The translations under genes were made by a program, and so were the position numbers. Positions 9,623-45,113 of a stretch of DNA of 64,000 nt are shown here, in pieces. A model generated the notes under the pieces. That model ran no database searches. It had not been told where the DNA came from and worked only from the letters and a program-made list of their open reading frames with translations. Each line of letters opens with the position of its first letter. Positions within the stretch are counted from its first letter, which is position 1. This DNA is from Terriglobales bacterium (GTDB lineage Bacteria > Acidobacteriota > Terriglobia > Terriglobales > Acidobacteriaceae), in NCBI GenBank assembly GCA_035573675.1, contig DATMAB010000015.1, positions 62,001 through 126,000 on the forward strand, written 5' to 3'.

Positions 9623-10975
9623 CTAGGACTTGGACGGGGCCAGGCCGTGCTTCTTGATGCGCTCGTAGAGCGTGCTGCGGGGAATGCCGAGCCGGCGGGC
9701 GGCCTGCTCCACCCGTCCCTGCTCCTGCTGGAGGATCCTGGCGATGTGGAGCTTCTCCAGTTCCAGCAGGGTCAGTGCAGATTCGTCTCCGCTGGCGGCG
9801 GCCGCAGCCTGGGAGTCGAAATGAAGGTCGCGGCGCCGAATTTCAGGCTGGCCGCTGAGCAGCGCGGCTCGTTCCAGCACGTTGCGCAGCTCGCGGATGT
9901 TGCCCGGCCAGGAGTAGGACTGCAGGCCTTCGATGGCATCGTCGGCCAAACCCAGTCCGGATCGCCCGAGGTCCGCCGCCAGACGCTGCAACAGGTGTTC
10001 AGCCAGTGCGGGGATGTCTTCCTTCCGCTCGCGGAGCGCCGGCACGTAGAGCGGAACGGTGCTGATGCGAAAATAAAGGTCGCTGCGGAAACGGCCCTGC
10101 TTGCCGAGGGCGGCCAAGTCCTGGTGCGTGGCGGCAATCAGGCGGATATCCACGCGGCGGTCCCGCACCTCGCCCAGGCGGCGGAACGACTTCTCCTCCA
10201 GCACCTTCAGGAGCTTGGGCTGCACCTGCAAGTCCACGTCGCCGATCTCATCCAGGAAGATGGTGCCGCGGTGTGCCACTTCCAGAAGGCCCTGCTTGGC
10301 GCTCACGGCGCCGGTAAACGCTCCCTTTTCGTGGCCGAAGAGTTCGGTTTCCAGGAAGTCGCGGTTCAGGCCGGCGCAGTTCAGGTCCACGAAAGGCTCT
10401 TCCGAGCGTGGCCCGTTGGTGTGCAGCCAGCGCGCCAGCACGCCCTTGCCGGTGCCGGTCTCGCCGCGGATGAGCACCGGGCTTTCGCTGGCTGCGATCC
10501 TGCTGGCGGAATCGGCAAGCTGGCGGATGGCGGCACTGGAGCCGAGGAAGGGGTCGATGGCCTCGCGGGCCTGGCGGGTCTTGCCCGCAATCTGCCGCTG
10601 GCGATTGCGCTGGTTCTCCAGCGCCCGCTGCAGAACCAGCAACACCGCGGGAAGCTCGACCGGCTTGGTGAGGAACTGCTCGGCGCCTTCCTTGATGGCG
10701 CGGACGGCCAGGTCGATAGAGCCGTGCGCCGTCAGCACGATCAGAGGAACGTTGGAGTCGATGGCGCGCAGGCGGGGCAGGAGGTCGAGCGCAGTTCCGT
10801 CCGGCAAGGAGTAGTCCAGCAGGGCGGCGTCGGGGCGCAGGCCGCGGAACTGGTCTTCCGCCGCGCGGCAATTACCGGCATCGGCCACATCGAAGCCGTG
10901 GGCTTCGAGATAGTCCTGGACGGCAAAGCGAATGGCTTCGTCGTCGTCGACCACCAGAATCTTGTACTTGGCCAC
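9623..10975 (-). CDS. NtrC-family sigma54-dependent response regulator
   Basis: This 450-residue protein has the three classic parts. Residues 1-120 are a receiver domain (VVDDDE pocket, acceptor Asp in LLDYSLPDG near 54). Residues about 143-365 are a sigma54-interacting AAA+ ATPase, with Walker A GETGTGKG, the GAFTGA loop that contacts sigma54, and Walker B FLDEIGDVD. The C-terminus is a Fis-type helix-turn-helix (ARRLGIPRSTLYERIKKHGL). All motifs needed to activate sigma54 RNA polymerase are intact. It starts 8 bp after the eight-PAS kinase stop, so the two are a kinase-regulator pair. Four sigma54-like sites lie in this part of the window. Confidence 0.95.
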   Translation of the reverse strand: MAKYKILVVDDDEAIRFAVQDYLEAHGFDVADAGNCRAAEDQFRGLRPDAALLDYSLPDGTALDLLPRLRAIDSNVPLIVLTAHGSIDLAVRAIKEGAEQFLTKPVELPAVLLVLQRALENQRNRQRQIAGKTRQAREAIDPFLGSSAAIRQLADSASRIAASESPVLIRGETGTGKGVLARWLHTNGPRSEEPFVDLNCAGLNRDFLETELFGHEKGAFTGAVSAKQGLLEVAHRGTIFLDEIGDVDLQVQPKLLKVLEEKSFRRLGEVRDRRVDIRLIAATHQDLAALGKQGRFRSDLYFRISTVPLYVPALRERKEDIPALAEHLLQRLAADLGRSGLGLADDAIEGLQSYSWPGNIRELRNVLERAALLSGQPEIRRRDLHFDSQAAAAASGDESALTLLELEKLHIARILQQEQGRVEQAARRLGIPRSTLYERIKKHGLAPSKS

Positions 10976-10983
10976 GGCCGCTC

Positions 10984-13900
10984 CTACTGGACGGGGATGG
11001 TCTCCGCGTCCGCAAGATGTACTGCCGGCGCGGCGGCGCGCGGCAACGAGACCCGCGCCTCCGTGCCCCCCTGGGGCCGGTTCAGGATAGTGATTGTACC
11101 CCCGTGCTCCTCGACAATGCGCTGCACAATGGACAATCCGAGGCCGGTCCCGCCGGAGCGCCGGGAAAAGAAGGGCTCAAAGATGTGCTCCAGGTCCTCG
11201 GCGGCGATACCTGAACCGGAGTCGAGAATACGGCACTCGATCGACGGCCCTCCCGCTTCCTCGGTCGTTTCCCACTCCACTTCGACGGTCTGCCCGGCGG
11301 AGGAGTGCTGGATCGAGTTCTCCAACAGGTTCTGAAAGACCTGGATCAGGCGCAGGCGCTCGGCCAGCACATCGGCCGGCGTGTGGGACCGCAGCACAAC
11401 GTTCACGCCCATGTGCCGCGCCAGGGGAGCGGAGGTTTGGACCGCCTGCTGCAGGATCTCACGCAGGTCGATAAGGATGCGATCGGGGCTGCTGGGCTTG
11501 CCCAGTTCAAGCAACTGCTTCATCAGTTCCGCCATCCGGTCGGTCTCGCGCCGCAGGGCGCGGATGTAGCGCTCATGGCCGGGCTGCGTTCCCAGCCGCA
11601 CCTCGAATGCATCCAGGGTGGAAGAGATGCCGAACAGCGGGTTGCGCACCTCGTGGGCCACGCCGGCTACCAGGGATCCGAGGGTGGAAAGGCTCTCGGC
11701 CCGGAGGAGCGTTTCCTGCAGCTTCACCAGCTCGGTGGTATCGCGCAATACCAGGATGGTGCGGCCTTCGGTTTCCGGCGCGGACAGGGGGAAAGCCTCG
11801 ATCTGCCACGAGCGATCCGCCAGTTCGTCATGAATATCGAGGCTCAACACTTCGTCCGCCTCACAGAGCCGGCCAGCCAGCTCAGCGGCCGCCTGCCACG
11901 GCTGGCCGGACAACTCGCGGATGTCCAGTCCGGGCAGGTCCAGATAGGGCCGGCCGGCAAGCTGCTGCCCGGCGCGGTTGATGCGGAGAATGCGATGGGC
12001 GCCGTCCAGGAGAAGCACGGGCGACTGCAAGGCGTCAAACGTGTCACGCCATTCCGTGGCCGCGCGCTGCAGAGCGAGGTACAGCCGCTCGCGCTCTTCT
12101 TCGGCACGCTTGCGCTCGCTGACGTCCAGGATGAAGGCCATCGCTTCGTCGGTCGAGCCCGCGAGCATGGAAACTCCGATAAGCACCGGCACCCGAGTTC
12201 CATCTTTGCGCACGTATTCCTTTTCCCAGGGAGCGGCAAACCTCTTCGCCCGGAGTTGCTCCGCCGCCTTCTCGTCACTTTCCCTGTGCTCGGCCGGCGT
12301 CATCGTCCGCCAGTTCACACGCCCGGCGGCCACATCCTCACGAGTGTAGCCGGTCATTTTCAGCCAGGCGTCGTTGGCCAAAAGGACGCGCCCGTCGAGA
12401 TGGGCGATGTGCAACCCGATCAAGCTGGACTCAAACAACTGGCGGAAACGAAGTTCACTGCGACGCAAGGCTTCCTGGGCGCGTCTTTGTTCGGTGAGAT
12501 CCCGGGCGACGGAGAGCACGCAGGTCTCTCCTTCGGCCTGAATGATGTGGGCTGAAACCACTCCGATGCGCCGCTCTCCGTTCTTATGCCGGAATGCGAA
12601 GTCATGGTCGATGACTCCTCCAGCGCTCTGCAGGCTCGCAATCCAGCGCCCGCGGTCGGCCGGGTCGCACCACATGCCCAATTCCAGGGCGCTGTGGCCG
12701 ATCAGTTCGCCGCGGGAATAGCCCGTCATCTGGAGAAAGGCCTGGTTCACATCGAGATAACGGCCATCGTGCAGCGAACTGATTGTCATGGGCGTAGGGC
12801 TGGAATGGAAGGCCTTGGAGAACTTCTCTTCGGACTGGCGCAGGTTCTCCTCGGCCTGCCGCCGCGCGGTAATGTCCGCCATGGCGCCGATCATGCGCAG
12901 GGGCTCGCCTTTCTCGGTGCGGATGATGTATCCCTGGTCGATGACGGTTGCATAGGATCCGTCGCCCCGGCGGAAGCGGTATTCGAGGTCGATGACCGAA
13001 TCGTTTCCCTTCAGGGCTGACTGCAGGGCTGTGGAAGTGCGCTCCCGATCCTCCGGGTGCACACGCTCCAGCCACCAGGCATAACCATCCTCGTCCGCAG
13101 TGGGGGGCCGCTGTCCGAACAGGGTCTCAACGGCGTCGTTCCAGACCAACTCGCCCGTCCACACGTTCCAATCCCAGACGGCGTCCCTGGTCGCCCGCGT
13201 GACCAGGCGATAGCGCTCTTCGCTCCGCCGCAGCGCCTCCTCCGCCTGCCGGCGCTCCGTTACGTCCTGCTTGATGGCTACGAAATGCGTGACTTCGCCG
13301 CCTTGTGCCACCGGTGTGATGGTCATTTCCTCGACGTAGATGGAACCATCCTTGCGACGGTTGTAGATCTCGCCCTTCCAGGTGCGGCCGGAAAGGATGG
13401 TTTGCCACACCTCCTGATAGAAGCCCTTTCCGTGGCGCCCTGACTGCAGGAATCGCGGGTTGAGGCCTACGGCTTCCTCGAGCGAATACCCGGTGAGCTC
13501 GGTGAAGGCCGGATTGGCCCAGACGATGTTGGCTTGGCGATCGGTGATGATGATGGCGTTGGCCGCCGCTTCCAGGGCTGTGGTGCGGATGCGCAGTTCT
13601 TCTTCGGCGCGCTTGCGTTCGGTAATGTCGTGAGAGATTCCGATGACGCCCTTTAGGGCGCCTTCTGCATCCCGGTACGGGGCCTTGGTAGCGAGGAAAT
13701 AGCGCACCCCGGTGGGCGAGACCGCCCGCTCTTCGTGGGTCACAGCCCCCTCGGTGTTGAGCGCCGCCAAGTCGCCCGCACGGAATATTTCGGCCACATC
13801 ACGCGGCTGCAACTCGAAGTCGGTCCAGCCTAGAACCTCCTGGATGGTGTGTCCCAGCGCCGCGGCGCCCGCGGAGTTGATCATCAGGTAGCGGCCTTCC

Positions 13901-14745
13901 AGGTCCTTCACGAATACGGCATCACTGGTGCCCTCGGCCACAGCGTGCAGCAGTTCGTGGTTCTGGCGCAGGCTTGCCTCCGCCTGCCGGTGGTCCGTGA
14001 TGTCATAGCCGGCCAGCACGATGCAGGGCCGGCCGGCGAATTCGCTCCTGGCTGCGCCCACATCCAGCCACCGCGCAGTTCCGTCCTTGCGGAGAATGCG
14101 AACCTGGTAGCGTGAGGGAACCGGCTCGCCGCGAAGTCGCGCCGCGGCGCGCTGCTGCATCAGGGGTACGCTCTCCGGGTGGATGAGCGGCCAAAGGTCT
14201 GCGGACACCAGTTCTTCCCGCGAGCGGCCGAAGAGTTCCTCCGCCGCGGCGTTCACGTAGACCAGGCGGCCTTCGTCGAGAATGCCGATGGCCACCGGTG
14301 CCGCCTCGGCCAGCGTGCGGAACAGCCGCTCGCTCTCCTGCAGCCGGCCCTCGGCGCGCTTGCGCTCGGTGATGTCGACGTCGGTGCCTTCGATGACATC
14401 CGGCTCGCCGTTCGTTCCGCAAACCAGGATGGCATTGGAAAGCACCCAGATCGGCGTCCCGTCCCTGCGCCGGCAGCACAACTCGTAGTTGTGGACCACA
14501 CCGTCCCGCTGCAGCCGCGCAACGTACGCCTGGCGATCCTCCGGCTTGCAGTAGAAGCTCTCACACGAACTCTGCAGCACTTCCTCCCGCGATTCGTAGC
14601 CATACAAGCGCGCGAAGGCGTCATTGCAATCGAGGGGGCGGCCGTCGAGCGTGGTGCGAAACAGGGCAGTCAGATTCCTCTCGAATAACCGCCGGTACGT
14701 GCCTTCCTCTGCCTGATGCCGTACTGCTTCTCTTGCCGTAGACAT
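10984..14745 (-). CDS. Soluble histidine kinase with eight PAS domains
   Basis: This 1253-residue kinase has no membrane segment. I count eight PAS repeats, each opening with a pattern like RYRLVTRATRD or RFRQLFESSL. They begin near residues 18, 145, 265, 388, 510, 640, 765 and 890. The transmitter has the H box GVAHEVRNPLFGI (His near 1030), an N box (NLLENSIQHS), DSGSGI and GTGLGLSIVQ, as in NtrB/AtoS-type kinases. There is no attached receiver. It is transcribed directly ahead of the NtrC-type regulator, which is its likely partner. The many PAS domains suggest soluble ligands, redox or haem sensing, but no cofactor residue can be named with confidence. Confidence 0.93.
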   Translation of the reverse strand: MSTAREAVRHQAEEGTYRRLFERNLTALFRTTLDGRPLDCNDAFARLYGYESREEVLQSSCESFYCKPEDRQAYVARLQRDGVVHNYELCCRRRDGTPIWVLSNAILVCGTNGEPDVIEGTDVDITERKRAEGRLQESERLFRTLAEAAPVAIGILDEGRLVYVNAAAEELFGRSREELVSADLWPLIHPESVPLMQQRAAARLRGEPVPSRYQVRILRKDGTARWLDVGAARSEFAGRPCIVLAGYDITDHRQAEASLRQNHELLHAVAEGTSDAVFVKDLEGRYLMINSAGAAALGHTIQEVLGWTDFELQPRDVAEIFRAGDLAALNTEGAVTHEERAVSPTGVRYFLATKAPYRDAEGALKGVIGISHDITERKRAEEELRIRTTALEAAANAIIITDRQANIVWANPAFTELTGYSLEEAVGLNPRFLQSGRHGKGFYQEVWQTILSGRTWKGEIYNRRKDGSIYVEEMTITPVAQGGEVTHFVAIKQDVTERRQAEEALRRSEERYRLVTRATRDAVWDWNVWTGELVWNDAVETLFGQRPPTADEDGYAWWLERVHPEDRERTSTALQSALKGNDSVIDLEYRFRRGDGSYATVIDQGYIIRTEKGEPLRMIGAMADITARRQAEENLRQSEEKFSKAFHSSPTPMTISSLHDGRYLDVNQAFLQMTGYSRGELIGHSALELGMWCDPADRGRWIASLQSAGGVIDHDFAFRHKNGERRIGVVSAHIIQAEGETCVLSVARDLTEQRRAQEALRRSELRFRQLFESSLIGLHIAHLDGRVLLANDAWLKMTGYTREDVAAGRVNWRTMTPAEHRESDEKAAEQLRAKRFAAPWEKEYVRKDGTRVPVLIGVSMLAGSTDEAMAFILDVSERKRAEEERERLYLALQRAATEWRDTFDALQSPVLLLDGAHRILRINRAGQQLAGRPYLDLPGLDIRELSGQPWQAAAELAGRLCEADEVLSLDIHDELADRSWQIEAFPLSAPETEGRTILVLRDTTELVKLQETLLRAESLSTLGSLVAGVAHEVRNPLFGISSTLDAFEVRLGTQPGHERYIRALRRETDRMAELMKQLLELGKPSSPDRILIDLREILQQAVQTSAPLARHMGVNVVLRSHTPADVLAERLRLIQVFQNLLENSIQHSSAGQTVEVEWETTEEAGGPSIECRILDSGSGIAAEDLEHIFEPFFSRRSGGTGLGLSIVQRIVEEHGGTITILNRPQGGTEARVSLPRAAAPAVHLADAETIPVQ

Positions 14746-15443: not shown

Positions 15444-15977
15444 GTGAAACGCCTGACTTCAATCGCAAGCATGTTCGCAGTGCTGGTCCTGACCGCGGGA
15501 CTGGCAGCCGCCGACACCAGCTCCGGCACCATGACGGTATCGGCCACGGTGGAGAGTTCCATCAGCCTGACCTTCGTATCCTCGGGCAGCGGCATCAGCC
15601 TGACCGGATCAGGCAGCAACGCGGCCACCATGGCCTTCGGCAACGTGAAGGCCTATGGCGGCAGCGTCCCGGCCGGGGTCACCAAATCGGTGAACGGAGT
15701 GACTGACTGGACGCTGAGCACCCCGTTCCTGGTCCGGGTGGAGAAGGCCAACCTGAGCAGCAGCGACTACACGCTGGAGGCTACTCTGAGCGCCGCCGAC
15801 GCCGTCTACGCCTGGGAAATCGACAACGTGGATATTTCCGACGGCTCCGCCAAGACCATCACCGCTACCGGTAACTACGACGCCAACGATTCGCACACGT
15901 TCGAGCTGATCATCGAGCACTCGGACGCTGCGGGCGCCGTGAACAAGACCATCAGCTTCGTCGCCACCTCGAACTAG
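15444..15977 (+). CDS. Secreted fimbrial-subunit-like protein
   Basis: The 177-residue product starts at a GTG preceded by AAGGAG. A signal peptide (hydrophobic residues 8-21, cleavage after GLAAA) leads into a Ser/Thr/Gly-rich, beta-strand-rich mature protein with no cysteine. It opens with TSSGTMTVSATVESSISLTF, a pattern shared with spore-coat/DUF4402-type and fimbrial subunits. It is first in a tight run with a second small secreted protein, a PapD-like chaperone and an outer-membrane protein. That gene order resembles chaperone-usher operons, so this is probably the major surface subunit. Function is inferred from fold-like pattern and context only. Confidence 0.6.
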   Translation: MKRLTSIASMFAVLVLTAGLAAADTSSGTMTVSATVESSISLTFVSSGSGISLTGSGSNAATMAFGNVKAYGGSVPAGVTKSVNGVTDWTLSTPFLVRVEKANLSSSDYTLEATLSAADAVYAWEIDNVDISDGSAKTITATGNYDANDSHTFELIIEHSDAAGAVNKTISFVATSN

Positions 15978-16058
15978 GGGTTCGGCGGAGGCTTCCTTCC
16001 CCGGGCTCGAGGCCGATAGGCGCTCGGGCCCCGGGGAACGATGTTGGGAGGCCCAGCC

Positions 16059-16595
16059 ATGAAAAGCGGCCCCGTGATTGCCCTGGGATTGCTGGCCTTC
16101 GCCTGTACGCTCGGGAAGCAGGGACTGGCCTCTGGACCTCCTGCCGCCGAGAGCCCTGGCCGAGCGGTTTTGCCGGGCGCAATCCGTATCAGCTTCCCGC
16201 TCTCCGCAGGCGGCGCAGCGTTGCGAAGCACCGGCCCGGGACAGGCCGATCTTGATTTCGGCCGCGTGTCCTATGCCACCGGAGCGCGAACCAGCGGCGT
16301 GAGCGTGCGGCGGACTTCTTCCGCCATGCACATCACAACCAGGTTTGCGGTTCAGCTGGACTCGGCGGGAGGCGGCTCACAGCGAACCGTCACGTTGAGC
16401 GCATTCCTGCTGCATGCGGACTCGCGGCAGCGGTTCAAGGTCGACGATGTGGAGCTAACCACCACTCCGCAAGTGATCCAAGCGCAGGTTCCGCTGGGCA
16501 CGGTTTCCATGCATCGGTTGGAGTTGGAGATTCCCAAGGATGCTCCGGCTGGAACAATCTCCAACGCCATCGGCTGGGTGGCCGTTGCCGATTGA
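16059..16595 (+). CDS. Second secreted subunit-like protein
   Basis: This 178-residue protein starts at an ATG with a GGGAGG ribosome binding site. A signal peptide (residues 5-17) precedes a beta-rich domain without cysteines. The sequence has regular alternating hydrophobic strands (DLDFGRVSYATGA, TTRFAVQLDSAGG, RLELEIPKDAPAGT). The phrase 'DFGRVS' near the start and the 'PAGTISNAIGW' ending resemble the strand pattern of DUF4402-like or fimbrial adaptor proteins. It lies between the first subunit-like gene and the chaperone-like gene, 28 bp before the latter. A minor subunit or adaptor role is inferred. Confidence 0.55.
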   Translation: MKSGPVIALGLLAFACTLGKQGLASGPPAAESPGRAVLPGAIRISFPLSAGGAALRSTGPGQADLDFGRVSYATGARTSGVSVRRTSSAMHITTRFAVQLDSAGGGSQRTVTLSAFLLHADSRQRFKVDDVELTTTPQVIQAQVPLGTVSMHRLELEIPKDAPAGTISNAIGWVAVAD

Positions 16596-16623
16596 GGGGC
16601 ACGCCGCGGGAGGAGAACACATC

Positions 16624-17523
16624 ATGAAGGCGCTGAAAGCGAAATCGGATGACACCATGGCCTGGGGGATCGCGCTCGCACTGCTGGTCGCGGCCGTTCT
16701 GTTATGGGCGCCGGAAGCCACCGGCCAGGAACTTCACCTGGCAGCGGCTGAGCCCGACATCCCGCGATCATCTCCGCCCCTGGGCAGACCTCCGATGGTG
16801 CACGACGTATCGCCGGTACGGCACTCCATCACGCTGTCGCCTGCGGTTGTGGAGCTTCGGGGCAAGCCGGGGCAGAGCACAAGTCAGCTTCTGAACCTGC
16901 ACAACGACACTCCCCGGGAACTGCGGTTTGAGATGGCCGCCCGCGACGTGGTGGTGCGCGACGGCAAGCGGGTCTTCGTAGCCGCTGGGGAAACGCCACG
17001 CGGCATCGCCGCGACCGCGGTGTTCTCCCGCAAGGCGGTGACCGTGCTTCCGGGTGAGACGGCCACCGTGCGCGTGACGCTCACGGTGCCGCCGGATTCA
17101 CCCGTGCGCGCCGTTGTGATCCTCTTTCAAAGCCAGAGCGAATTCAAGGAGCCGGGCAAGGTCGGTTTATCGGCATCGCTCGGAACGCTGCTGACCTTCA
17201 CCCTCTCGGATCAGGTGCGGATCGAGGCCGCACCGATCGCCGTCACACCGCAGTCGGCGACGGCGAACACCGGGTTCTCGCAACGGCTGACCAATGCTGG
17301 CGCCGAACCGGTTTCGCCGCAGGGCGTCGTGGCCATCCTCAGCCAGTCCGGACAACTGGTGGGCAAGGCGGCATTTCGTTCGCATCGCCTCCTGCCTGGG
17401 CAGCAACTTGAGTTTCAGGCCGAGTATCCGGCGGAGCTGAAACCCGGACGCTATCGCGCCTTTGCCTCGTTTCAGTTCGAAGGCCAAACCATCACCAACG
17501 TGGCCGAATTCACCGTCCGATGA
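16624..17523 (+). CDS. PapD-like periplasmic chaperone
   Basis: This 299-residue protein starts at the ATG at 16624 with a GGGAGGAG ribosome binding site. A membrane/signal segment covers residues 13-30. The mature part carries a two-lobed immunoglobulin-like pattern. The first lobe has SITLSPAVVELRGKPGQSTS, then the FSRKAVTVLPGETATVRVTL strand pair, and a loop of PPDSPVRAVVILF typical of pilus chaperones. The second lobe runs from about residue 205 to the end. Such chaperones hold unfolded subunits in the periplasm by donor-strand completion. The stop overlaps the next gene's start (ATGA), so chaperone and outer-membrane protein are translationally coupled. Confidence 0.65.
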   Translation: MKALKAKSDDTMAWGIALALLVAAVLLWAPEATGQELHLAAAEPDIPRSSPPLGRPPMVHDVSPVRHSITLSPAVVELRGKPGQSTSQLLNLHNDTPRELRFEMAARDVVVRDGKRVFVAAGETPRGIAATAVFSRKAVTVLPGETATVRVTLTVPPDSPVRAVVILFQSQSEFKEPGKVGLSASLGTLLTFTLSDQVRIEAAPIAVTPQSATANTGFSQRLTNAGAEPVSPQGVVAILSQSGQLVGKAAFRSHRLLPGQQLEFQAEYPAELKPGRYRAFASFQFEGQTITNVAEFTVR

Positions 17524-20138
17524 AACGCGCGTCGTCCATCGTCGTCCTGATGCTTGCCCTGCCGGCGTTCGCCGAAGAACTCACGGTGGGCTATCAGAAG
17601 ACCGTCCAGGTGCAGGTGCCGGGAGCAGTAGCGGCGTATTCTCTGAATTCGGCCTGTGCGGAGGCACGGGTGGAAGACGAAACGCTGCTCGTGCGCGGCA
17701 AGGTGCCGGGTACCACCAGCGTGGTCGTCGTCCTGAAGGAAGGGACCCGAGCGTACTCGGTGCGCGTCCCCGAGCCGCCGCCCTCCCGGCCTAAAGGGTT
17801 CGAGATGCCGTTGCCACGGGGCGATTCCTACGGCAGCTACGAACTGCGCTATGCCTCGGGCCCCGCCCAGCTGCAGAACGTCTTCAACCTCACCCGGCAG
17901 GAAGGCGACCGCACCCTGCGCCTGCACGTGGCCACCGCCAACCTGTTTACCGGAGTGCCCGGGCGCTCGCGCCTCAGCCTGCCGTCAGCGTTTTTTCAGA
18001 TCCAGACTCCGCGCCGCGAGATCACCCTCGGCGACCAGACCATCCAGAGCTCGATGATGACCCTCAACGGCTCCACGGTGCGCGGCGTTCATCTGCGGCA
18101 AGGCGAGGTCACTCTGCATGCCGGCTACACGTCCATCGCCGAGTTTCAGGATCTGTTCCTCCCTGCGGTGCGGGAAGGCGTGCTGGGCGTTCGACTCCGC
18201 CGTCCGCTGGCCGAGAGCGCCGCCCTCACCTTCAACGTCTTTCATTTTTCCCACCGAGGACGGGCCGGAACAGTCAGCAGCGGCACACCCGGGCCGGTCG
18301 CGTCACTGGTGTACGAATACAAGCCGAGTGATGCCCTGGAACTGGAAGCAGAAGCCGGCCTCAGTCATGGCCGCATCGGCGGATCGCTGCTGTTCCGCCT
18401 GAGGCGTGCCGACGAACAGTTCTTCGCCCGGTTGCGCTACCAACCGCGCGGGTTTGCCTCGCTCGCGGCCAACAATTTCCACGGTTTCTACTCCGACGTG
18501 AGCTGGGCGCGGCAGGTGACCGACAAGCTGAAGAGCAGCGTGCGCTTCACCGGAAACCGCTATTCGATCGCCAATTACGAGCAGACCAACCTGCACTCCC
18601 AGATAGAGATGCGCTACCAGCCGACGCGCAACTGGTCGGTACTCGGCGGAGCTGCGTATGCGCGCTATCAGCCGCAGCAGCCGCCGCGGCCCGGCAGCGA
18701 AAGCTTCAGCTTTCCCCTCGGCGTCGGTTTCGATGGGCACCGCTTCGGCACGAGTTTTCAGTACCGGTTCTCCCGGCATTCCGGCAGCGACCTCGGCGGG
18801 CATCAGCTTCGCCAGACCGTGCGGGCCAGTTGGGACCGGCTGCACGTCTCCGCCTTCGTGGATCGCCAGACCCAGGCTCCGACTGTGGATGTGATTTTCC
18901 GCGAGTTGCCCGGGCTGGCCCAGGCGGTGACGCAACTCGGCCTGGCTGCCACCTCGCCCGAGGAACTGGGACGGCTGCTGGAGGAGAATCCAGCCCTGGC
19001 GGGACTGGGGTATGTCCAGGGGGTCAACTTCCACCTCAGTCCGGTACGCCTGCAGGCGGGAGGCACTGTGGCCTGGATGGGGCGGGGCACCAGCCGGCAA
19101 CAGCTCAACTACAGCTTCCTCTTCAACAACACCCAATCGGTTGGCGGAGCTTACCAGTCGGCCCTGCACTCCTGGACGTACTCTCGCAAGCTTAGTGCTT
19201 CGCTCGATGTCTTCGTGTCCATGTCTTTGCTCCGCAGCCCGCTTTCCACGGCTGGCTCGGGCTACCAGCCGCTGGTGGCGTTCTCCTTGCGCCACCATTT
19301 CAACGGCGTGCCGCGCTTCCTGCTGCCGGGCCGAACCGGGACCATCTCCGGCGTCGTCTTTCGCGACGACGACCTGGGGGGCGAACTAGGCGCGGATGAA
19401 CACGGGCTGGCCGGCATCGAGGTTGTACTCGATGGCGTCACGGTGGCCCGCACCGATCGCAACGGGCGTTATGTTTTCTCCCGTGTGACACCGGGCCGCC
19501 ACACGGTGGAAGTGGTTCCTCAGCGTGAGTCGGAGTCCCTTTTCACGACGGACTCGCATGTCGAAACGGACATCAACACCCGGGTGGATTTCGGGGTTGC
19601 GGCAGCCCCCGTGTCCATCGTGGGCCTGGTTCACGATGATGCGGGTACAGCCATTGCCCGCGTTGCCGTGGCCGTGTCCGGCGACGGGAATCGCAGGTCG
19701 GTACAGACCGACGGCGAAGGGAAGTTCCGCCTGCAGGGACTGCAACCGGGACCCTACGAACTCGCCATCAATACTGAATCCGTGCCACCCGGATACCTGC
19801 TGGAGGGCGTAAGACCTGTGCGCGTCGTCGCGCAGGCGGAGGAGCCGGCGCAGGTGGAGTTCACGCTCGCCGCCATCCGTACCGTCGCCGGTCGAATCAC
19901 CCTCTACGACCCGGCCGCGGCGCGGGTGGTTCCGGTCCGGGGCGTCGTCGTTCGCTTGGAACCGCTGGGCCGTGAGAGCACCAGCGACTCCAGCGGCGCC
20001 TTCCTGTTCCGAGCGCTGCCTCCCGGCGAATACACCGCCTCGATCGTGTACGCCGGCAGGAGCTGGGTTCGAACCCTGATCGTGCCCGCCGGCCCGTTCC
20101 ACCGCACGGATTTCAATTTCGACCTCAGTGCCAACTAG
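17520..20138 (+). CDS. Outer-membrane usher-like barrel with secretin-type N-domain
   Basis: This 872-residue protein has a signal peptide (1-18). A small domain (about 20-80, ELTVGYQKTVQVQVPGAVAA) resembles the pilus-formation N-terminal domain of CpaC-type secretins. Residues 95-600 are a long series of amphipathic strands with alternating aromatic residues, as in a barrel. The last 260 residues hold three repeats of the SdrD/carboxypeptidase-regulatory type (TISGVVFRDDD near 608, SIVGLVHDDAGT near 697, RTVAGRITLYD near 785), each with a GxYxFxxLxPGxY-like strand. Classical ushers also end in small beta domains. Gene order after a chaperone supports an export-pore role; it is not a canonical FimD. 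Confidence 0.6.
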   Translation: MKRASSIVVLMLALPAFAEELTVGYQKTVQVQVPGAVAAYSLNSACAEARVEDETLLVRGKVPGTTSVVVVLKEGTRAYSVRVPEPPPSRPKGFEMPLPRGDSYGSYELRYASGPAQLQNVFNLTRQEGDRTLRLHVATANLFTGVPGRSRLSLPSAFFQIQTPRREITLGDQTIQSSMMTLNGSTVRGVHLRQGEVTLHAGYTSIAEFQDLFLPAVREGVLGVRLRRPLAESAALTFNVFHFSHRGRAGTVSSGTPGPVASLVYEYKPSDALELEAEAGLSHGRIGGSLLFRLRRADEQFFARLRYQPRGFASLAANNFHGFYSDVSWARQVTDKLKSSVRFTGNRYSIANYEQTNLHSQIEMRYQPTRNWSVLGGAAYARYQPQQPPRPGSESFSFPLGVGFDGHRFGTSFQYRFSRHSGSDLGGHQLRQTVRASWDRLHVSAFVDRQTQAPTVDVIFRELPGLAQAVTQLGLAATSPEELGRLLEENPALAGLGYVQGVNFHLSPVRLQAGGTVAWMGRGTSRQQLNYSFLFNNTQSVGGAYQSALHSWTYSRKLSASLDVFVSMSLLRSPLSTAGSGYQPLVAFSLRHHFNGVPRFLLPGRTGTISGVVFRDDDLGGELGADEHGLAGIEVVLDGVTVARTDRNGRYVFSRVTPGRHTVEVVPQRESESLFTTDSHVETDINTRVDFGVAAAPVSIVGLVHDDAGTAIARVAVAVSGDGNRRSVQTDGEGKFRLQGLQPGPYELAINTESVPPGYLLEGVRPVRVVAQAEEPAQVEFTLAAIRTVAGRITLYDPAAARVVPVRGVVVRLEPLGRESTSDSSGAFLFRALPPGEYTASIVYAGRSWVRTLIVPAGPFHRTDFNFDLSAN

Positions 20139-20365: not shown

Positions 20366-21895
20366 ATGGAACATAGGTCCAAAACCGGAAACCGGGCGGT
20401 TGAGAGGCAGTCCGGCATGGCGATGCTGCTCACCATCTTCGCCCTCTTGCTGGTGTCGGCGATGGCCATCGCGCTGCTCGAAGCCGGCACGTGGGAAACC
20501 CAGCTCAACGATAACCACCGCAACCGCGTGAAGGCTCACTTTGCCTCGGTGGCCGGCCTGGAAGAGGTGCGCGAAAGGCTCACCCCGGGCAACCCGGCGC
20601 CCCACTTTATTCTTGGTCCTACTGCGCTGCCCGGCGGTCCGGGTTCGGTGGTCTACGTCCTGAATCCGGCCGGCGGCAGCGATGTGGTCGCGCCCACCGA
20701 CCCCAACAACCGCTACTTCGACAACGAACTGTGTCGCGAGAATTTTCCCGGGCTCGGCTTCGCCTCCAACACCACCTGCACGCAGGCTTCATCGGTTCCC
20801 GGCGTGTACGCCTTCCTCTCCAGCGACGCCCCGTTTACCGGAACTCCGGCGGCGCTCGAGTACAAGTGGGTCCGGATCACGCTGAAGTCGAATTCGACGC
20901 TTGCTCCTTTCTATGTCAATGGCGGCTCCGGCGCGGCCACGCTGAACCGGCAAGCCTGCTACAGCGGAATGAACGAGATGCTGCCGCCGCCGGACTACCT
21001 TGCCTGCGATCAGCCACCGGCCGGAACCAGCCGGATCTTCAAGCCGGTCTACATCCTCACCTCGCTGGCGGTGACCGCCACGGGCAGCCGGCGGATGACC
21101 CAGATGGAGGTTGCGGCCATCCCCCCGTTTATCGGCAGCGCGGCCATCGATTCCCAGGACCACGTCACGCTCAACGGGCAGTTGACGGTGAACTCTTACG
21201 ATTACTGCAGTTGTTCGTGCACCACGGACAAGCAGGGTAATACCACCTGCACCAGCCGCGACGGGCAGACCTGCGATACCAGCAAGTACGCCATCTTTTC
21301 CAGCAGCACGGTGGACAAGACGAATTCCTCCCAGAACTTGATCTCCGGCCAGAATCCGCCGGTGAAAGAGAACCAGGCCTGGCCCTATGACATTCCCGCG
21401 CTTATCGACATGTACAGGAGCATGGCGGCCGCGGTCGACGTGCGCAACACGCCCTACAACTACGTCTGCAGCGGTTCGCCGCTGAATTGCGGGACCAAGA
21501 GCGGCCAAGTCTTCGGAGTGCCGCCCTATTTTCCGCCCAATCCGCCGGAGAACCCGGCTGGTCCGTCCAATATGGCGCCCCAGATCACTTACATCCCAGG
21601 GAACCTGCAGATCACCGGCAATACCCAGGGCAACGGGGTGCTGCTGGTCGATGGCGACTTGAACATCAGCGGCGGCCTTCAGTTCTACGGGCTCGTCATC
21701 GTCAAAGGAGTCATCAAGTTCTCAGGCGGCGGCTCGCAATCGACCAACATCTACGGCCAGGTTCTGGCGGGAGAGGAATCGCTGGTCGACAGCGTACTGG
21801 GCGGCAGCGCCAACATCACCTTCGATGCCTGCTCGCTCAAACAGCCTTTGCCGCCGCAGCCACCGCAAGTCATCAGCTTTCGAGAGCTCTACTAG
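20366..21895 (+). CDS. PilX-like type IV pilus minor pilin
   Basis: This 509-residue protein starts with a short basic leader ending in RQSG, followed by MAMLLTIFALLLVSAMAIAL. This is a class III prepilin signal and matches the PilX N-terminal pattern, including the downstream HRNRVKAHFASVAGLEEVRE. The usual Glu at mature position 5 is absent. The large C-terminal region (20900-21890) ends with TGNTQGNGVLLVDGDLNISG and FYGLVIVKG, a repetitive beta-helix seen in acidobacterial and myxococcal PilX-like proteins. It has eight or more cysteines, including CSCSC, which may pair. It is probably a minor pilin or adhesin tip; the other pilus genes lie outside the window. Confidence 0.75.
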   Translation: MEHRSKTGNRAVERQSGMAMLLTIFALLLVSAMAIALLEAGTWETQLNDNHRNRVKAHFASVAGLEEVRERLTPGNPAPHFILGPTALPGGPGSVVYVLNPAGGSDVVAPTDPNNRYFDNELCRENFPGLGFASNTTCTQASSVPGVYAFLSSDAPFTGTPAALEYKWVRITLKSNSTLAPFYVNGGSGAATLNRQACYSGMNEMLPPPDYLACDQPPAGTSRIFKPVYILTSLAVTATGSRRMTQMEVAAIPPFIGSAAIDSQDHVTLNGQLTVNSYDYCSCSCTTDKQGNTTCTSRDGQTCDTSKYAIFSSSTVDKTNSSQNLISGQNPPVKENQAWPYDIPALIDMYRSMAAAVDVRNTPYNYVCSGSPLNCGTKSGQVFGVPPYFPPNPPENPAGPSNMAPQITYIPGNLQITGNTQGNGVLLVDGDLNISGGLQFYGLVIVKGVIKFSGGGSQSTNIYGQVLAGEESLVDSVLGGSANITFDACSLKQPLPPQPPQVISFRELY

Positions 21896-29048: not shown

Positions 29049-30098
29049 ATGAGCTACGACCCCGAGTTTGCAAGCAGGACCTTCCGCGAAGCAGCAGCGA
29101 TCTGGCTGGAATCACGTCGCCCTCACCTGAAGGCGCGGACGCTTTCGGACTACAAGGAGTACCTCGTCCCCCTCAATGGCTTCTTCGGCGACATGCGGCT
29201 CCGGGCCATTCATGCGGCACACCTGCGCGAGTACCAACACGCGCGCCTGGAAGGCGTGCCGCCGTTCAAGCAGAAGGCCGGAGCCTCGCGCATCAACCAT
29301 GAACTCAGCATGCTCGGGCAGATTCTCCGGCGTGGCGGGCTGTGGGCCGCCGTCGAGCCGGGGTACGAGCCCCTGCGGCTGCCCAAGTTCCAGCCGCCGC
29401 GCGCCCTAACCGCCGAACAGGAGCAGCGCTTGTTCGCAGTCGCCAGTGGGCGGCCGGAGTGGGCTGAGGCCTACTACGCTGGCCTGTTGATGGTTAACAC
29501 CACGGCATCGGGATGCGAGGTCCGTGGGTTGCGGATTGCAGACGTGGACCTCGTCAACCGCACAATCTCCGTGCGAGAGGAGAGCGCCAAGAATCAGTTC
29601 CGCGTTCGTCGCATACCGCTGAACGGCGTGGCCACGTTGGCGGTCGAGAAGCTCCTGGAGAGGGCGGCAAGCCTGGGCGCTCGGGAGCCGCAGCACTACG
29701 TGTTCCCCTACCGCGAGGCACGCAACCGCTACGATCCCACGCGACCGATGAGCCGCTGGGGTTTGCGCGGCGCCTTCCGCGAGATTAAGGAAGCGGCCGG
29801 CCTGCCGTCCTTCCGCCCGCACGATCTGCGGCATACGTCCATCACGCGCATGGCCGAGGCCGGTGTGCCCGTGCAGGTGGGGATGAGCATCAGCGGGCAC
29901 AACACGCGGCAGATGTGGGAGTGGTACTCGCAGATCGGCATGGAAGCCAAGCGCAATGCCCTGGGGTGTCTGGAGGCAGGACCGCCGAAGGTCTACGGGA
30001 TGAACGGGGAGCCGCCGCCCACCGCGGCCGACAAGAAGCCGCGCGATGTACCCGCGAAGGCGCCGGGCACCTGGGTTGTGCCGGCTGCAACAGATTAG
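29049..30098 (+). CDS. Tyrosine recombinase/integrase (left copy)
   Basis: This 349-residue protein has an N-terminal SAM-like core-binding domain (residues 10-105, TLSDYKEYLVPLNGFFGDMR). The catalytic domain follows: first Arg in GCEVRGLR (near 159), the strand with Lys in ESAKNQFRVRRIPLNG, HDLRHTSITRMAE (258-270), and GHNTRQMWEWYS with the nucleophile Tyr near 293. All catalytic residues are present. There is no arm-binding AP2-like domain at the N-terminus. It closely resembles the second recombinase in parts (IPLN..A..AV..LLERA..LGA..P.HY), so the two belong to one subfamily. Confidence 0.92.
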   Translation: MSYDPEFASRTFREAAAIWLESRRPHLKARTLSDYKEYLVPLNGFFGDMRLRAIHAAHLREYQHARLEGVPPFKQKAGASRINHELSMLGQILRRGGLWAAVEPGYEPLRLPKFQPPRALTAEQEQRLFAVASGRPEWAEAYYAGLLMVNTTASGCEVRGLRIADVDLVNRTISVREESAKNQFRVRRIPLNGVATLAVEKLLERAASLGAREPQHYVFPYREARNRYDPTRPMSRWGLRGAFREIKEAAGLPSFRPHDLRHTSITRMAEAGVPVQVGMSISGHNTRQMWEWYSQIGMEAKRNALGCLEAGPPKVYGMNGEPPPTAADKKPRDVPAKAPGTWVVPAATD

Positions 30099-30215
30099 GG
30101 GCTAGTGCTACTGGCGCGAATAATGGGTTCCGCCAACATGCTCGCCGGACGTAGTTCCTCTACAACCTGTGCACTCGTCCACATGCCAACCATCGTGTCC
30201 TGGCGAATGTAGCAG

Positions 30216-30653
30216 TCACTCCGGTACTCCCTCCCAGAACAACTTGTACCAAACGATGATCTTGGCCTTCTGAGCCATCAGCGTCGCTTGATTCACGCCT
30301 GTCTCTCTGGCCGTGTGCGACTCGATGTATGGATGTCTACCGCTTGGAGCGTTTCGTGCTGGAAGCGCCCTGCCTTCCGGATGTTGCTCCGGCCACGGCC
30401 ACCATTCGACGTTCAAAGCGGGTCCGGTCCCAACATTTACTAGTTGCACTGTAGTGCCTTCGGCCTTCATCACCAGCACAGGGCGCGACATACTTTCGAC
30501 TTGGTCTGCGGAAACCTTGGATTGCTGTATCGCGGCCTCCTTGATTCTTTCCGTGCTTTCCACGTACCGCTTTGCATAGTGCACGCTCGCGGCCAGAAGT
30601 AGTAGCTGGCCACCGAAGATAAGGGTTTGAATTTCATCCAACGAGTAGGACAT
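30216..30653 (-). CDS. Membrane-anchored protein of unknown function
   Basis: This 145-residue protein has a single N-terminal membrane segment (residues 11-27, LIFGGQLLLLAASVHYAK), followed by a charged helix (residues 28-52). A beta-type domain follows, with RPVLVMKAEGTTVQLVNVGT and GPALNVEWWPW. The NVGTGPALNV sequence occurs in many uncharacterised membrane-anchored bacterial proteins. It does not look like a structural phage protein and may be cargo. It has the same orientation as the secreted protein gene 62 bp upstream (30716-31813), with which it may be cotranscribed. Confidence 0.6.
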   Translation of the reverse strand: MSYSLDEIQTLIFGGQLLLLAASVHYAKRYVESTERIKEAAIQQSKVSADQVESMSRPVLVMKAEGTTVQLVNVGTGPALNVEWWPWPEQHPEGRALPARNAPSGRHPYIESHTARETGVNQATLMAQKAKIIVWYKLFWEGVPE

Positions 30654-30715
30654 CTTGCACTCTCCCGAACGTTAGCCAGATGGGCGGCTGGGGATGGGAA
30701 ACGATTTCATCCCCT

Positions 30716-31813
30716 CTACTTATGAGCCCAGATTGCTGCGCACGCATCCTTGATCGCGTTCTTGAGCAACTGGGTCCCACCGCTATAGATTGCGTCGCCG
30801 GCCGGAGTGAACACAGAGACGCTATAAGGCGGCGAACCCCAATGGGAGTGGTCCAGCAGCACGATGTAGTCGGCTTTCTCTGCGTGCACAGTAACGACGA
30901 ACCCAGGGCAGCGTTCGTGCAGGGTCTTGAGGATTTCCGGCTTCGGCAGATGGGTTCCGCTACTCGCGGACGTGGCTGTGTTACGAAAGCGCTCGAAACC
31001 GCCGAGGCTTTCCCATGTCTTGCGGTCCGTAAGAAAGATGCGCGACCCCGCCTCGGTCGCAACGTCCGCCTTGCCTTCGTGGGGTTGGGGGCTGGTTGGC
31101 GCAGGCTCCTCGGTAGCCGATGCTGACGGCTTCGCGGGCTCGAAATGTGAGGCCGGCAGGGAAGGTTGGGTAGCGGAAACCTCGCTGAGCGTGACGTCCT
31201 GGTCGAGCCGCAACCAAAGCTTGCGCCCCTTCTTAAGCTCGAAATCATCCCAGCGCGCGCTGGCCTCGGCCAATGCGCCCAGCACCGCGATAGCTCCGCC
31301 GATACCGGCGCCGATCCCAGCACCTTTCGCCCCGCCAGCGGCAGCGCCAATGCCCGCGCCTACGCCCGCCCCGGTGACTACGACGCCTGCGGTTTCACCC
31401 TTAGATATGCCAGGCTGCGTCGCAACGCCCTCGGCGTCCACGTCTTGCGACATCCCCAGGCTTTGAAGCGAAGCTGGGGCCTCAAGGGCACGCCCGTCCG
31501 GGAAGGTCATGCGATAGAACGCCAGCCGGAGCCGCGCCGAGATTCTCTGCTTACGATCAGCAGCCCGCACATCCTCGACACGGCCTGTCAAGCGGCTGCC
31601 CGTTGGCACGAGCACATTGCTGCCTCGCTCTACAGGCTGGAGCAAGATGACCTCGACTCCGTCTCCCACACGCGCAGTCTTGGTGCTGACACTCGATTCG
31701 AGTTTCGCCCGCAGGCGCGTCCCGGCCAGTAGGGATACCGTATCGCTCTGGGCGCGAGCGGGCCCTGATCCGCAGACAAAGGCCAGCAAAATGGCAAGCG
31801 CGAGCTCTCTCAT
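30716..31813 (-). CDS. Secreted protein with glycine-zipper segment
   Basis: This 365-residue protein (ATG at 31813) has a signal peptide (residues 4-20, cleavage after GPARAQ). The next domain (DTVSLLAGTRLRAKLESSVS...VPTGSRLTGRVEDV) resembles the soluble beta domain found in many acidobacterial secreted proteins and in TrbI/VirB10-like folds. It is followed by a long glycine zipper (about 145-190, GAGVGAGIGAAAGGAKGAGI). After a Pro/Ser linker, the C-terminal domain (HERCPGFVVTVHAEKADYIV to AAIWAHK) matches a type of secreted protein seen elsewhere in such genomes. Its presence within a phage-like element suggests cargo. Function unknown. Confidence 0.65.
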   Translation of the reverse strand: MRELALAILLAFVCGSGPARAQSDTVSLLAGTRLRAKLESSVSTKTARVGDGVEVILLQPVERGSNVLVPTGSRLTGRVEDVRAADRKQRISARLRLAFYRMTFPDGRALEAPASLQSLGMSQDVDAEGVATQPGISKGETAGVVVTGAGVGAGIGAAAGGAKGAGIGAGIGGAIAVLGALAEASARWDDFELKKGRKLWLRLDQDVTLSEVSATQPSLPASHFEPAKPSASATEEPAPTSPQPHEGKADVATEAGSRIFLTDRKTWESLGGFERFRNTATSASSGTHLPKPEILKTLHERCPGFVVTVHAEKADYIVLLDHSHWGSPPYSVSVFTPAGDAIYSGGTQLLKNAIKDACAAIWAHK

Positions 31814-32305
31814 CGTCAAATATCCCCGGGTAGCAGGGTGCTGATGGGGCGCATTGTAGCGCGTTTTGACCCTGTTTTTTGGGGCGTCCCGGGGCGTTGG
31901 GTAGGAGGGGGTATATTTTTTTGTGACCGGGTAAATCTTCTTGTGACCTTGTGCGAGTCGCTTCTATGCGGGATTATGAGGGCACCCAAGTGAGGCTTCC
32001 ACCTCCACAAATGGGGGCCGCCCTCGGGTTGAAACGCAGGGGCCCGTGGTTTGAAATGGGGCGCGCGGTGTCCAAGACCACGCGTTTTGCGACCCCAGGC
32101 CCCTTTCGCTTATTGTGAGTGTCTGGTAGCGAGTACGGTCGTGTCAACCTCGGTTGGGCTGCATGGTTTCTCCGCCGTGGGCAAGACGCCTTTGGCTGTC
32201 GGCATCGTGCAGGACGATACGGTGTGCTCACTGGGCACAGGGTCTATAAACGGCGCGTGCTGCTGGGCTGGCCCGGAACCCTTAGAACCCGTGTCCGGCT
32301 CGTGC
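31814..32305. other. Noncoding stretch inside the element
   Basis: About 490 bases without a supported gene. It contains T-rich runs (31877-31882 and 31916-31921), two TTGTGACC direct repeats (about 31920 and 31939), and a TACAAT -10-like box on the minus strand (31853-31858) that could serve the secreted-protein gene. Base composition is less GC-rich around 31910-31950 than nearby. The short open frame 32051-32407 shows no coding features. Confidence 0.5.
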
Positions 32306-32458
32306 CTAACGCCAAGTGATGCGTCTGTAGCGAGTGATCTCCCGGCGCGCAGCGCGCCAGAAATAGATGGCCACGGCCAGGACTATCACGCACGCGAACG
32401 CATCTAGGATGCCCAGGGGCGGGTAGGTGAAGCCTGGCGGGATGGGCGGCTCGGGCAT
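32306..32458 (-). CDS. Small single-pass membrane protein (50 aa)
   Basis: A 50-residue open frame with start MPEPPIPPGFTYPPLGI, then a hydrophobic segment (FACVIVLAVAIYF) and a basic tail (RAARREITRYRRITWR). That layout (short outside, one helix, basic inside) suits a small phage holin or pinholin-like protein. It begins 10 bases after the stop of another tiny membrane ORF and follows the tail gene in the same direction. The ribosome binding site is weak, so the call is tentative. Confidence 0.4.
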   Translation of the reverse strand: MPEPPIPPGFTYPPLGILDAFACVIVLAVAIYFWRAARREITRYRRITWR

Positions 32459-32468
32459 GCGAGGACCG

Positions 32469-32552
32469 TCAGATCTCCGACATGATGGCGCCCAGCAGCC
32501 AAACCATTGCCGCGAGCCCCACGAACACGATCAGGATGTTGAGCACCAGCAT
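32469..32552 (-). CDS. Tiny membrane peptide (27 aa)
   Basis: An ATG at 32552 opens a 27-residue peptide that is almost entirely hydrophobic (LNILIVFVGLAAMVWLLGAI) and ends in SEI. It lies 45 bases after the tail-protein stop and 10 bases before the next small ORF, both on the minus strand. Single-helix peptides are frequent beside phage lysis or tail genes. It is below the size where coding potential can be judged from sequence alone. Confidence 0.35.
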   Translation of the reverse strand: MLVLNILIVFVGLAAMVWLLGAIMSEI

Positions 32553-32597
32553 GGTGACGGGGACGTTCCCTCTCCTGCCGGCCGAAAGTCAAGCGCT

Positions 32598-35126: not shown

Positions 35127-35134
35127 CCAGGCAC

Positions 35135-35500
35135 CTAGGCCAGAGTGGGCCGCCGAAGCTCGCCCAGCGCGCGCGTAAACGTCTGTCCGCAGGCCGTGCA
35201 GGGGATCGTGACTTCCGTGGCCGCGAAGCGCTCCACGTCGTTCACAATCGCTTCCGAAACCCTCTCACTGAAGACGGGGATCTCGGCGGGGCTCAGTTGC
35301 GGCACCACGCCCGTCGCCAGAATGGCGTCCACTTCGTCGGACGGCCGGAACCCGCTGGTCTCGATCAGGTCCGCCATCACGAACTCAATCACCGCTGAGC
35401 AGTGTGGGCAGGTCGTCCAGGAGTGGTTGTTGTCGGCGGGACGCTCGTGATTCAGGCGTTCGAGTATTCTGGCCAAGAAGTCGGCGAATCTGACGGTCAT
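35135..35500 (-). CDS. Small zinc-binding phage protein
   Basis: This 121-residue protein has two CxxC pairs, CPHC (residues 31-34) and CTAC (about 100-103), likely forming a zinc site. Between them is an acidic, helical segment. The ATG overlaps the stop of the Nu1-like gene (ATGA at 35497-35500), and its own stop is 8 bases before the tail-protein start. No family is recognised. The tight coupling implies a role in packaging or tail assembly. Confidence 0.6.
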   Translation of the reverse strand: MTVRFADFLARILERLNHERPADNNHSWTTCPHCSAVIEFVMADLIETSGFRPSDEVDAILATGVVPQLSPAEIPVFSERVSEAIVNDVERFAATEVTIPCTACGQTFTRALGELRRPTLA

Positions 35501-36072
35501 GCGTCCTCCTTAGAATCGTCCGAGGGCTCGACCGCACCGCTCACGCCCTCGCTGAATTTTAGTTCTGGCACGGCCTGGCCGCAGTGCAGGCAATGGCCGG
35601 GTTGGAGGTAGGTTTCAGGAATCGAGAGCGCGGTGAGTGCCACGTGCACTTGGTCCGTGAGCCGCTTGCGGATCACGTGCCGCGGCTCGCCTTCGAGTTG
35701 GTGAGCGACGCGCCCTGGTAGGCCCAACAGTTGAGATCGAACGACCGCGATCATGTTTCCCATGACCCGCTTGAATGCTTCCACGGGCACGAGCTCGCCG
35801 CGCTTCTCGGCCAGTTCCATCTCGGCCAGGTCCGCGCTGGCCTTCAGCATGCGAGCCCGCTGTCGGCGCACGTCGGCGCTGGAGCCGTCGTCAGAGAACA
35901 TCTCCCGGCGCTCAAAGGCGGACTGCATGTAGCGGATGTACCAGGCCATGCACGCGCCGAGCTCGTATTTTCCCCGCTCGGCGCGCGGCATGCCCTCGTG
36001 GACCAACTGGTTGACGCGCCTGCGGGTGACGTTTAGCGCCTTCGCAATCTTCTCAACACCAACTAGGGCCAT
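35497..36072 (-). CDS. Phage terminase small subunit (Nu1-like)
   Basis: This 191-residue protein starts with a winged/HTH DNA-binding domain (VEKIAKALNVTRRRVNQLVHEGMPR), as in lambda Nu1. A helical dimerisation segment (residues 65-115, RRQRARMLKASADLAEMELA) follows. That layout, and the sequence KRGELVPVEAFKRVMGNMIAVVR, match Nu1-type small terminases that recognise packaging sites. Near the C-terminus there is a CxxC (HCLHCGQ), which is not typical and could bind zinc. No large terminase gene follows or precedes. It is coupled by a 4-base overlap to the next small gene. Confidence 0.75.
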   Translation of the reverse strand: MALVGVEKIAKALNVTRRRVNQLVHEGMPRAERGKYELGACMAWYIRYMQSAFERREMFSDDGSSADVRRQRARMLKASADLAEMELAEKRGELVPVEAFKRVMGNMIAVVRSQLLGLPGRVAHQLEGEPRHVIRKRLTDQVHVALTALSIPETYLQPGHCLHCGQAVPELKFSEGVSGAVEPSDDSKEDA

Positions 36073-36286
36073 CGGGTAGCGGGTTTCCTTTTCTGAGAAG
36101 CGTTTCTGGTTGCAACCGCCTCAAAAGCCTCGACTTGGGCGCTCGCAAAAGGAAAGGAAACCTGAAATTCAGGGCCTTTACTCTAGCGAGAGCCTGGGGC
36201 CGCCGTCACCCGCAGGGGGAGGGGTCGTGGAAGTACCTACGGTTACCCTGCCCCCTGCGTCGGGCCGGACAGCCATCGCGGATGCG

Positions 36287-37054: not shown

Positions 37055-37377
37055 TGAATTTTTCTCCTCGTTGAAGTCCTCTCGGCGTGCCGTGAGGTCT
37101 TGCAGGTGCGCCTCACGCGGCGAGACTGGAGCCCGGCAGATAGGCCCCAGCCCCGCCATGCGAGGGAAACCGTGGGCGGCACACCGGCCGCCTCGGTAGC
37201 TTCCGTCTCGCCGATGGGCAGCCATCCCCATCAGCGGGTGTCGCAAGTCAGGCTCGTGCACGTGGCGGCCCGAGCCATTTCCCCGACGCTCGACGGTAAC
37301 GCCGGCCCGATTGGAAGGATGCCAACCGGGTGCTCCTGGCACGATTCCGTCGTCGTTTACCACGGCTCGTGCCAAAG
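37055..37377. other. Noncoding gap in the morphogenesis operon
   Basis: About 320 bases between the S49 protease stop and the coiled-coil gene start. The frame of the downstream gene is open through it, but the sequence (rich in Arg, Gly and Pro) has no family resemblance and lacks a ribosome binding site. It may be an untranslated spacer or the scar of a lost gene. Confidence 0.45.
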
Positions 37378-43355: not shown

Positions 43356-43385
43356 CAGCACCGCCCCCGCTGCCAGGGCTGCGCG

Positions 43386-43664: not shown

Positions 43665-43666
43665 CC

Positions 43667-43876: not shown

Positions 43877-44006
43877 TCCCCCCCCTAGTCGCCGCTACCG
43901 GAATAGTTGGCCATCGTGCTGGAACAATACCCGGAGAACTTGAATCTGTCAGTGTGGCGCTGAACGCTACACTGCGAGGTCGCTGCCGGTTTCTCGGCAT
44001 CCGCCG

Positions 44007-45095: not shown

Positions 45096-45113
45096 TTCAG
45101 GAGGGAGGGCGGC

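Follow-up and report, generated by a model that had tools for sequence, protein, structure and literature searches.

Four adjacent genes at positions 15444-20138 of the window, i.e. the whole stretch of 64,000 nucleotides analysed here, probably encode a divergent chaperone-usher pathway, whose most likely product is a surface fibre. This conclusion draws on the gene order, the co-inheritance of the components, their predicted folds and homologies, and the presence or absence of donor segments, all of which were determined computationally. A non-canonical chaperone-usher-like fibre system without a plug had already been proposed in the first-pass annotation; it is supported by a predicted barrel and by the conserved co-occurrence of the genes.

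Operon and probable fibre subunits

Inspection of the open reading frames revealed that the four genes form a single run on the + strand. The first gene, sub1 (15444..15977, +), has a GTG start and encodes a secreted, pilin-like fibre subunit of 177 aa with a signal peptide of approximately residues 1-23. It is followed by sub2 (16059..16595, +; alternative start at 16041) for a second secreted subunit, by the gene of a putative PapD-like periplasmic chaperone (16624..17523, +; 299 aa) and by that of a usher-like outer-membrane protein (17520..20138, +; 872 aa). Tight coupling by an ATGA overlap, initially ascribed to the whole cluster, applies to the chaperone and outer-membrane protein genes, the sole overlapping pair (ATGA at 17520-17523), whereas gaps of 81 nt and 28 nt separate sub1 from sub2 and sub2 from the chaperone gene, respectively. 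The cluster itself proved to be real, as its gene order is kept in distant genomes, which is more than would be expected by chance. Pfam gave no match above the cut-off for sub1, sub2 or the chaperone of the window, and the NCBIfam scan disclosed weak matches only, all below the cut-off. Searches with the single window proteins against PDB sequences yielded nothing useful.

Divergent from the fibre operon, a gene for an NtrC-type response regulator lies beside the gene of a 1,253-residue multi-PAS histidine kinase (9623-14745, - strand). A response-regulator gene is likewise located just upstream of the cluster of one relative (L022). On account of the divergent NtrC-type regulator, sigma-54 promoters were sought; the window contained about as many matches as expected by chance, with none in front of sub1. 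Rfam revealed no riboswitch upstream of the operon. The downstream gene (20366-21895), whose product has a PilX/GspK-like N-terminus and a weak T2SS_GspK match, resembles a minor pseudopilin and seems to belong to a different system, not to the fibre operon. The window also contains a prophage-like region (29049-46382), which is flanked by two genes for tyrosine integrases and includes genes for tail, tape-measure, head protease and replication functions.

A profile search detected homologues of sub1 at loci belonging to the window clade, the group of 15 related outer-membrane proteins described below. An AlphaFold2 (AF2) model of sub1, calculated from an alignment of 21 sequences, reached a pLDDT of 89.5. 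In this monomer no strand precedes residue 39, where the first core strand begins, and the segment of residues 24-38 (DTSSGTMTVSATVES; 15513..15557, +), the predicted donor strand, is unpaired. An alternating pattern of large hydrophobic residues, defined as a net excess of at least three such residues in alternation within the segment preceding the core, was found in 20 of the 21 sub1 homologues. Donor-strand features, which the first-pass annotation had suggested looking for in the subunits, are predicted for sub1. None of the 15 sub2 homologues reached this excess, and many are proline- or charge-rich at this place. Nevertheless, the sub2 genes were matched by the profile seeded with sub1 (E up to 1.7e-15), indicating that sub2 is homologous to sub1. 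SCPU or DUF4402 matches were obtained with Pfam for neither sub1 nor sub2. Foldseek returned no match of the sub1 model under E 0.001. Using VIA-align for a second look at the same Foldseek candidates, CfaB ranked first with a moderate Z of 8.0, and by our count 45 of the 50 best rows were chaperone-usher pilus subunits or adhesin domains. Judged from the model, sub1 has the predicted properties of a chaperone-usher pilin, namely an incomplete Ig fold with an N-terminal donor segment. In chaperone-usher pili, the subunit lacking a donor segment sits at the tip. Since sub2 is devoid of a donor-strand segment, it is probably the tip subunit.

Conservation of the cluster and relatives of the chaperone

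A search of 61 related genomes gave partial matches, chiefly to the C-terminal modules of the outer-membrane protein. In the neighbourhoods of the best of these matches, several genomes contained a chaperone-like gene directly upstream of the outer-membrane protein gene. With a profile built from seven of these chaperones, 47 out of 347 genomes in the phylum were matched; with one built from twenty, 51 out of 399 genomes in the class. At a score of at least 80 bits, 55 chaperones were found next to a large outer-membrane protein, and in 42 of these loci the two genes overlap or are separated by 15 nt at most; the pair is thereby present in dozens of genomes. Three of the loci without an adjacent outer-membrane protein (L068, L069 and L074) harbor the gene after two further subunit genes.

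The window clade comprises 15 outer-membrane proteins, and its other members are 26-40% identical to that of the window over the full length. In most of its loci the order sub1-sub2-chaperone-usher was read, and some contain additional copies of a subunit or chaperone gene. Relatives from distant Acidobacteriota groups, and from distant families, share this order of the four genes. Hence, the neighbourhood search proposed at the outset recovered the cluster elsewhere in the Acidobacteriota, and the four genes do co-occur outside the window. The distribution of the clade is patchy: three of 200 genomes in one family, seven of 148 in another class and one of 89 in a further family carry members of the clade, family and class of the relatives being assigned by kinship label. 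Among the occurrences are metagenome-assembled genomes of an Acidobacteriota and of a Thermoanaerobaculia bacterium. A scan of genome contigs with two peptide patterns, which are too narrow to prove a restriction to the phylum, disclosed three loci. One relative (L139:4403-6951) possesses a second sub1-chaperone copy within the same cluster, and the genomes G621 (L137/L101) and G722 (L140/L114) contain A-type and B-type copies of the system together.

In a tree of the chaperones with 61 rows, each of the eight architecture groups that we defined for the outer-membrane proteins forms a single clade; this requires seven changes of architecture, compared to a mean of 38.4 after shuffling. We conclude from these single clades that the chaperone and outer-membrane protein types were inherited together.

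The chaperone of the window was initially described as PapD-like. Pfam did not support this for the window protein itself, which gave no PapD_N hit; it was corroborated by profiles built from relatives. PapD_N does match relatives in the outlying loci L082, L083 and L092. A profile made without the outlying groups detected the PapD-type chaperones of these loci (E 1e-11 to 1e-30) among 1,596 background ORFs, and hhalign connected the chaperone groups. The same chaperone family reaches an archaic-type locus, L092, with SCPU subunits, PapD_N (1e-16) and Usher (4e-16). Unlike the window, L092 and L093/L094 carry SCPU or DUF4402 subunits. Compared with PDB sequences, the family profile matched EfmWxLIP1 over both Ig domains (5e-8), EcpB (3e-3) and CsuC (0.02). 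EfmWxLIP1 originates from a WxL system; there, WxLIP is predicted to insert one of its strands into WxL, whose sandwich would thereby be completed (PMC10599100). Weak WxLIP_PGBD matches were seen in the relatives L065 and L078. Going by these profiles, we count the window chaperone as a PapD-like periplasmic protein of the two-domain type, with WxLIP as its nearest solved relative by sequence. The stretch of residues 178-195 (VGLSASLGTLLTFTL region; 17155..17208, +) is strongly conserved among the orthologues and may represent the G1 donor strand. There is no C-terminal transmembrane helix at the end of the protein.

The outer-membrane protein

In ushers, a 24-stranded barrel with a plug inside it is accompanied in the periplasm by one N-domain and two C-domains (PMC8410936). 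The usher-like protein was represented by one AF2 model from 15 sequences (pLDDT 79.8, pTM 0.54), consisting of an N-terminal domain, 26 strands at residues 103-594, a helical insert and C-terminal sandwiches. Thus, structure prediction of this protein alone, as envisaged in the first-pass annotation, did yield a barrel. The predicted plugless barrel of 26 strands, a number that we counted from the listed AF2 elements, is encoded at 17826..19301 (+). In FimD and PapC the plug is located between strands 6 and 7. Because only two residues separate these strands in the model, the plug appears to be absent. The helical insert (residues 454-506; 18879..19037, +) is placed between strands 21 and 22 and has a low confidence (pLDDT about 50); it is conserved in the orthologues. 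By strand parity it is predicted to reside on the extracellular side, and we suggest that it may gate the pore.

FimD ushers made up the best eight Foldseek matches of the model in the PDB (E 1.4e-15 to 3.2e-14); PapC ranked twelfth. With VIA-align, FimD and PapC occupied the top five rows (Z 14.7-15.8), followed by TOM, LptD and porins at 14.6 and lower, so that the lead of 15.8 versus 14.6 is small. By sequence, the barrel was linked to carboxypeptidase-module outer-membrane proteins of our groups B and G, weakly also to H and C, and not to the group bearing PF00577. As the profiles restricted to the barrel found no sequence link to ushers of the PF00577 type, the reading as usher rests on structure and synteny. 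The barrel profile did not find any link among PDB sequences either.

We regard it as unlikely that the cluster is an ordinary archaic (sigma) chaperone-usher system altered by sequence drift only, in which plug and 24 strands are real and the AF2 model is wrong. In the model of residues 103-594, strands 6 and 7 follow each other too closely to accommodate a plug of 80 residues, the usher N-domain is replaced by PF13629, and neither PF00577 nor PapC_N was matched by Pfam in the window protein, even though FimD and PapC are its best folds and the chaperone homology continues to SCPU-type archaic loci. Moreover, the family lists of the 15 clade members do not include PF00577, which also had no match in 41 genomes, i.e. 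the genome of the window and 40 relatives. The missing connection of the barrel-only profiles to the PF00577 group points in the same direction.

At its C-terminus the protein carries three SdrD/CarboxypepD_reg beta-sandwich modules (19332..20135, +), as recognised early on and confirmed by Pfam (CarboxypepD_reg in three stretches, E 3.5e-25; SdrD_B, E 2.3e-15) and by AF2. They occupy the place of CTD1/CTD2 and belong to other Pfam families. SPOR domains are present in six and TPR repeats in two of the 15 window-clade proteins, at the C-terminus wherever positions were read, and the proteins of other branches end in OmpA, LysM or SPOR. The latter three are peptidoglycan-binding families. Since the modules of relatives run into these domains and the even number of strands implies the same, the C-terminus is probably periplasmic and not exposed on the cell surface. 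A function of the modules as surface domains is therefore unlikely; the best interpretation is that they correspond to CTD1/CTD2 of ushers in the periplasm and are not surface-adhesin domains. In one relative (L021:6991-10209) a long Gly-Asn repeat lies between the C-terminal modules.

The SPOR, OmpA and LysM domains of the relatives, together with EfmWxLIP1 as best match of the chaperone profile over both domains and the predicted strand insertion of WxLIP into WxL (PMC10599100), would also suit a peptidoglycan-linked porin or anchor combined with a strand-complemented surface layer, which is stabilised by the chaperone-like protein in a WxL/WxLIP-like manner without fibre export. This we consider very improbable, given that ushers are the top folds of the barrel protein, that sub1 carries a donor segment and resembles pilins that polymerise, and that the chaperone lacks the C-terminal transmembrane helix of WxLIP.

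In place of the usher-type PapC_N, the protein begins with a T2SS-T3SS_pil_N domain (PF13629; 17574..17768, +). The CpaC-like domain noticed in the first-pass annotation is weak in the window protein, with E 1.3e-3 and 18.8 bits versus a cut-off of 23 in Pfam and 22.8-23.4 bits in the genome search, and more distinct in orthologues (E up to 6.7e-9), being detected in nine of the 15 clade members. In other branches of this superfamily of outer-membrane proteins, the position is taken by a Cu_amine_oxidN1-like domain or by none, and for this reason we regard the N-domain as exchangeable. A second, stronger PF13629 protein encoded in the host genome is probably the Tad secretin CpaC. The PF13629 N-domain is the sole part in common with CpaC-type secretins; a secretin core domain was found in the window proteins by neither Pfam nor NCBIfam, and the earlier idea of a mixture with a secretin system is not supported. 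A hybrid of chaperone-usher and secretin systems, in which this N-domain docks on type II or Tad machinery, would suit the PF13629 N-terminus and the presumed CpaC of the genome but is hardly credible with the secretin core absent and the N-domain exchangeable across the superfamily.

Proposed assembly and place among chaperone-usher systems

For the chaperone-usher pathway favored here, we infer an assembly order, donor-strand exchange and gating as follows. Signal peptides would export sub1 and sub2 to the periplasm, where the chaperone would lend a beta-strand to each incomplete subunit and deliver it to the outer-membrane usher. Without a donor segment of its own, sub2 would be taken first and become the tip. 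Sub1 would polymerise behind it, the N-terminal segment of each sub1 being donated to the subunit ahead, and the fibre would exit via the plugless barrel; the conserved helical insert may serve to close this pore. The PF13629 domain would substitute for the N-domain that normally recruits the chaperone, and CTD1/CTD2 would be replaced by the carboxypeptidase-regulatory modules, which in relatives would tether the usher to the cell wall. Adhesion or biofilm may be the purpose of the fibre.

Archaic (sigma) Csu pili of Acinetobacter resemble the system by their two-domain chaperone, the donor segment on small subunits and the adjacent usher, and CsuA/B and CsuC were among the structure and profile matches. 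They differ in that the window system lacks matches to SCPU and PF00577, that its model is plugless and that its outer-membrane protein bears other terminal domains. Classical FimD and PapC are the nearest solved folds and likewise have extra domains flanking the barrel on both sides, but contain 24 strands and a plug (PMC8410936) in contrast to 26 predicted strands, a plugless barrel and other end domains. The alternative (alpha) systems CFA/I and ECP provided the best structural match of sub1 (CfaB) and the top chaperone-usher chaperone match (EcpB), respectively, whereas no sequence family match exists and the outer-membrane protein is a different one. Gram-positive WxL/WxLIP clusters, with a WxL domain protein and a DUF916-DUF3324 protein, resemble the system in the match of the chaperone family profile to EfmWxLIP1 over both Ig domains and in the strand insertion predicted for WxLIP; however, Pfam found no WxL domain in the window, an outer-membrane usher is present, and WxLIP is membrane-anchored.

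The components and their arrangement are those of a chaperone-usher pathway, and we think that the system works like one. It was not filed under the classical, alternative or archaic class because the outer-membrane protein showed neither a match to the usher family nor a plug in the model nor the usher N-domain, and because the subunits match neither SCPU nor DUF4402. Only tentatively can a separate Acidobacteriota class be considered, which would be characterised by plugless ushers with a larger barrel, an exchangeable recruitment domain, peptidoglycan-tied C-termini and a chaperone between PapD and Gram-positive WxL-interacting proteins. If true, it would suggest that the strand-donating fibre systems of both types of cell envelope go back to a common ancestor.

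Chaperone-usher classes have been described mainly from Proteobacteria, the archaic class also in a few other phyla (PMC4654587). In papers under open licence we found no description of Acidobacteriota ushers or of plugless ushers. A widespread Acidobacteriota variant missed by standard models would mean that surveys undercount such fibres. A plugless usher would allow the need of the plug for gating to be tested, and the swapped end domains would show which parts of an usher are essential. Finally, the likeness of the chaperone to WxL-interacting proteins suggests a connection between the pili of Gram-negative and the surface proteins of Gram-positive bacteria that can be tested.
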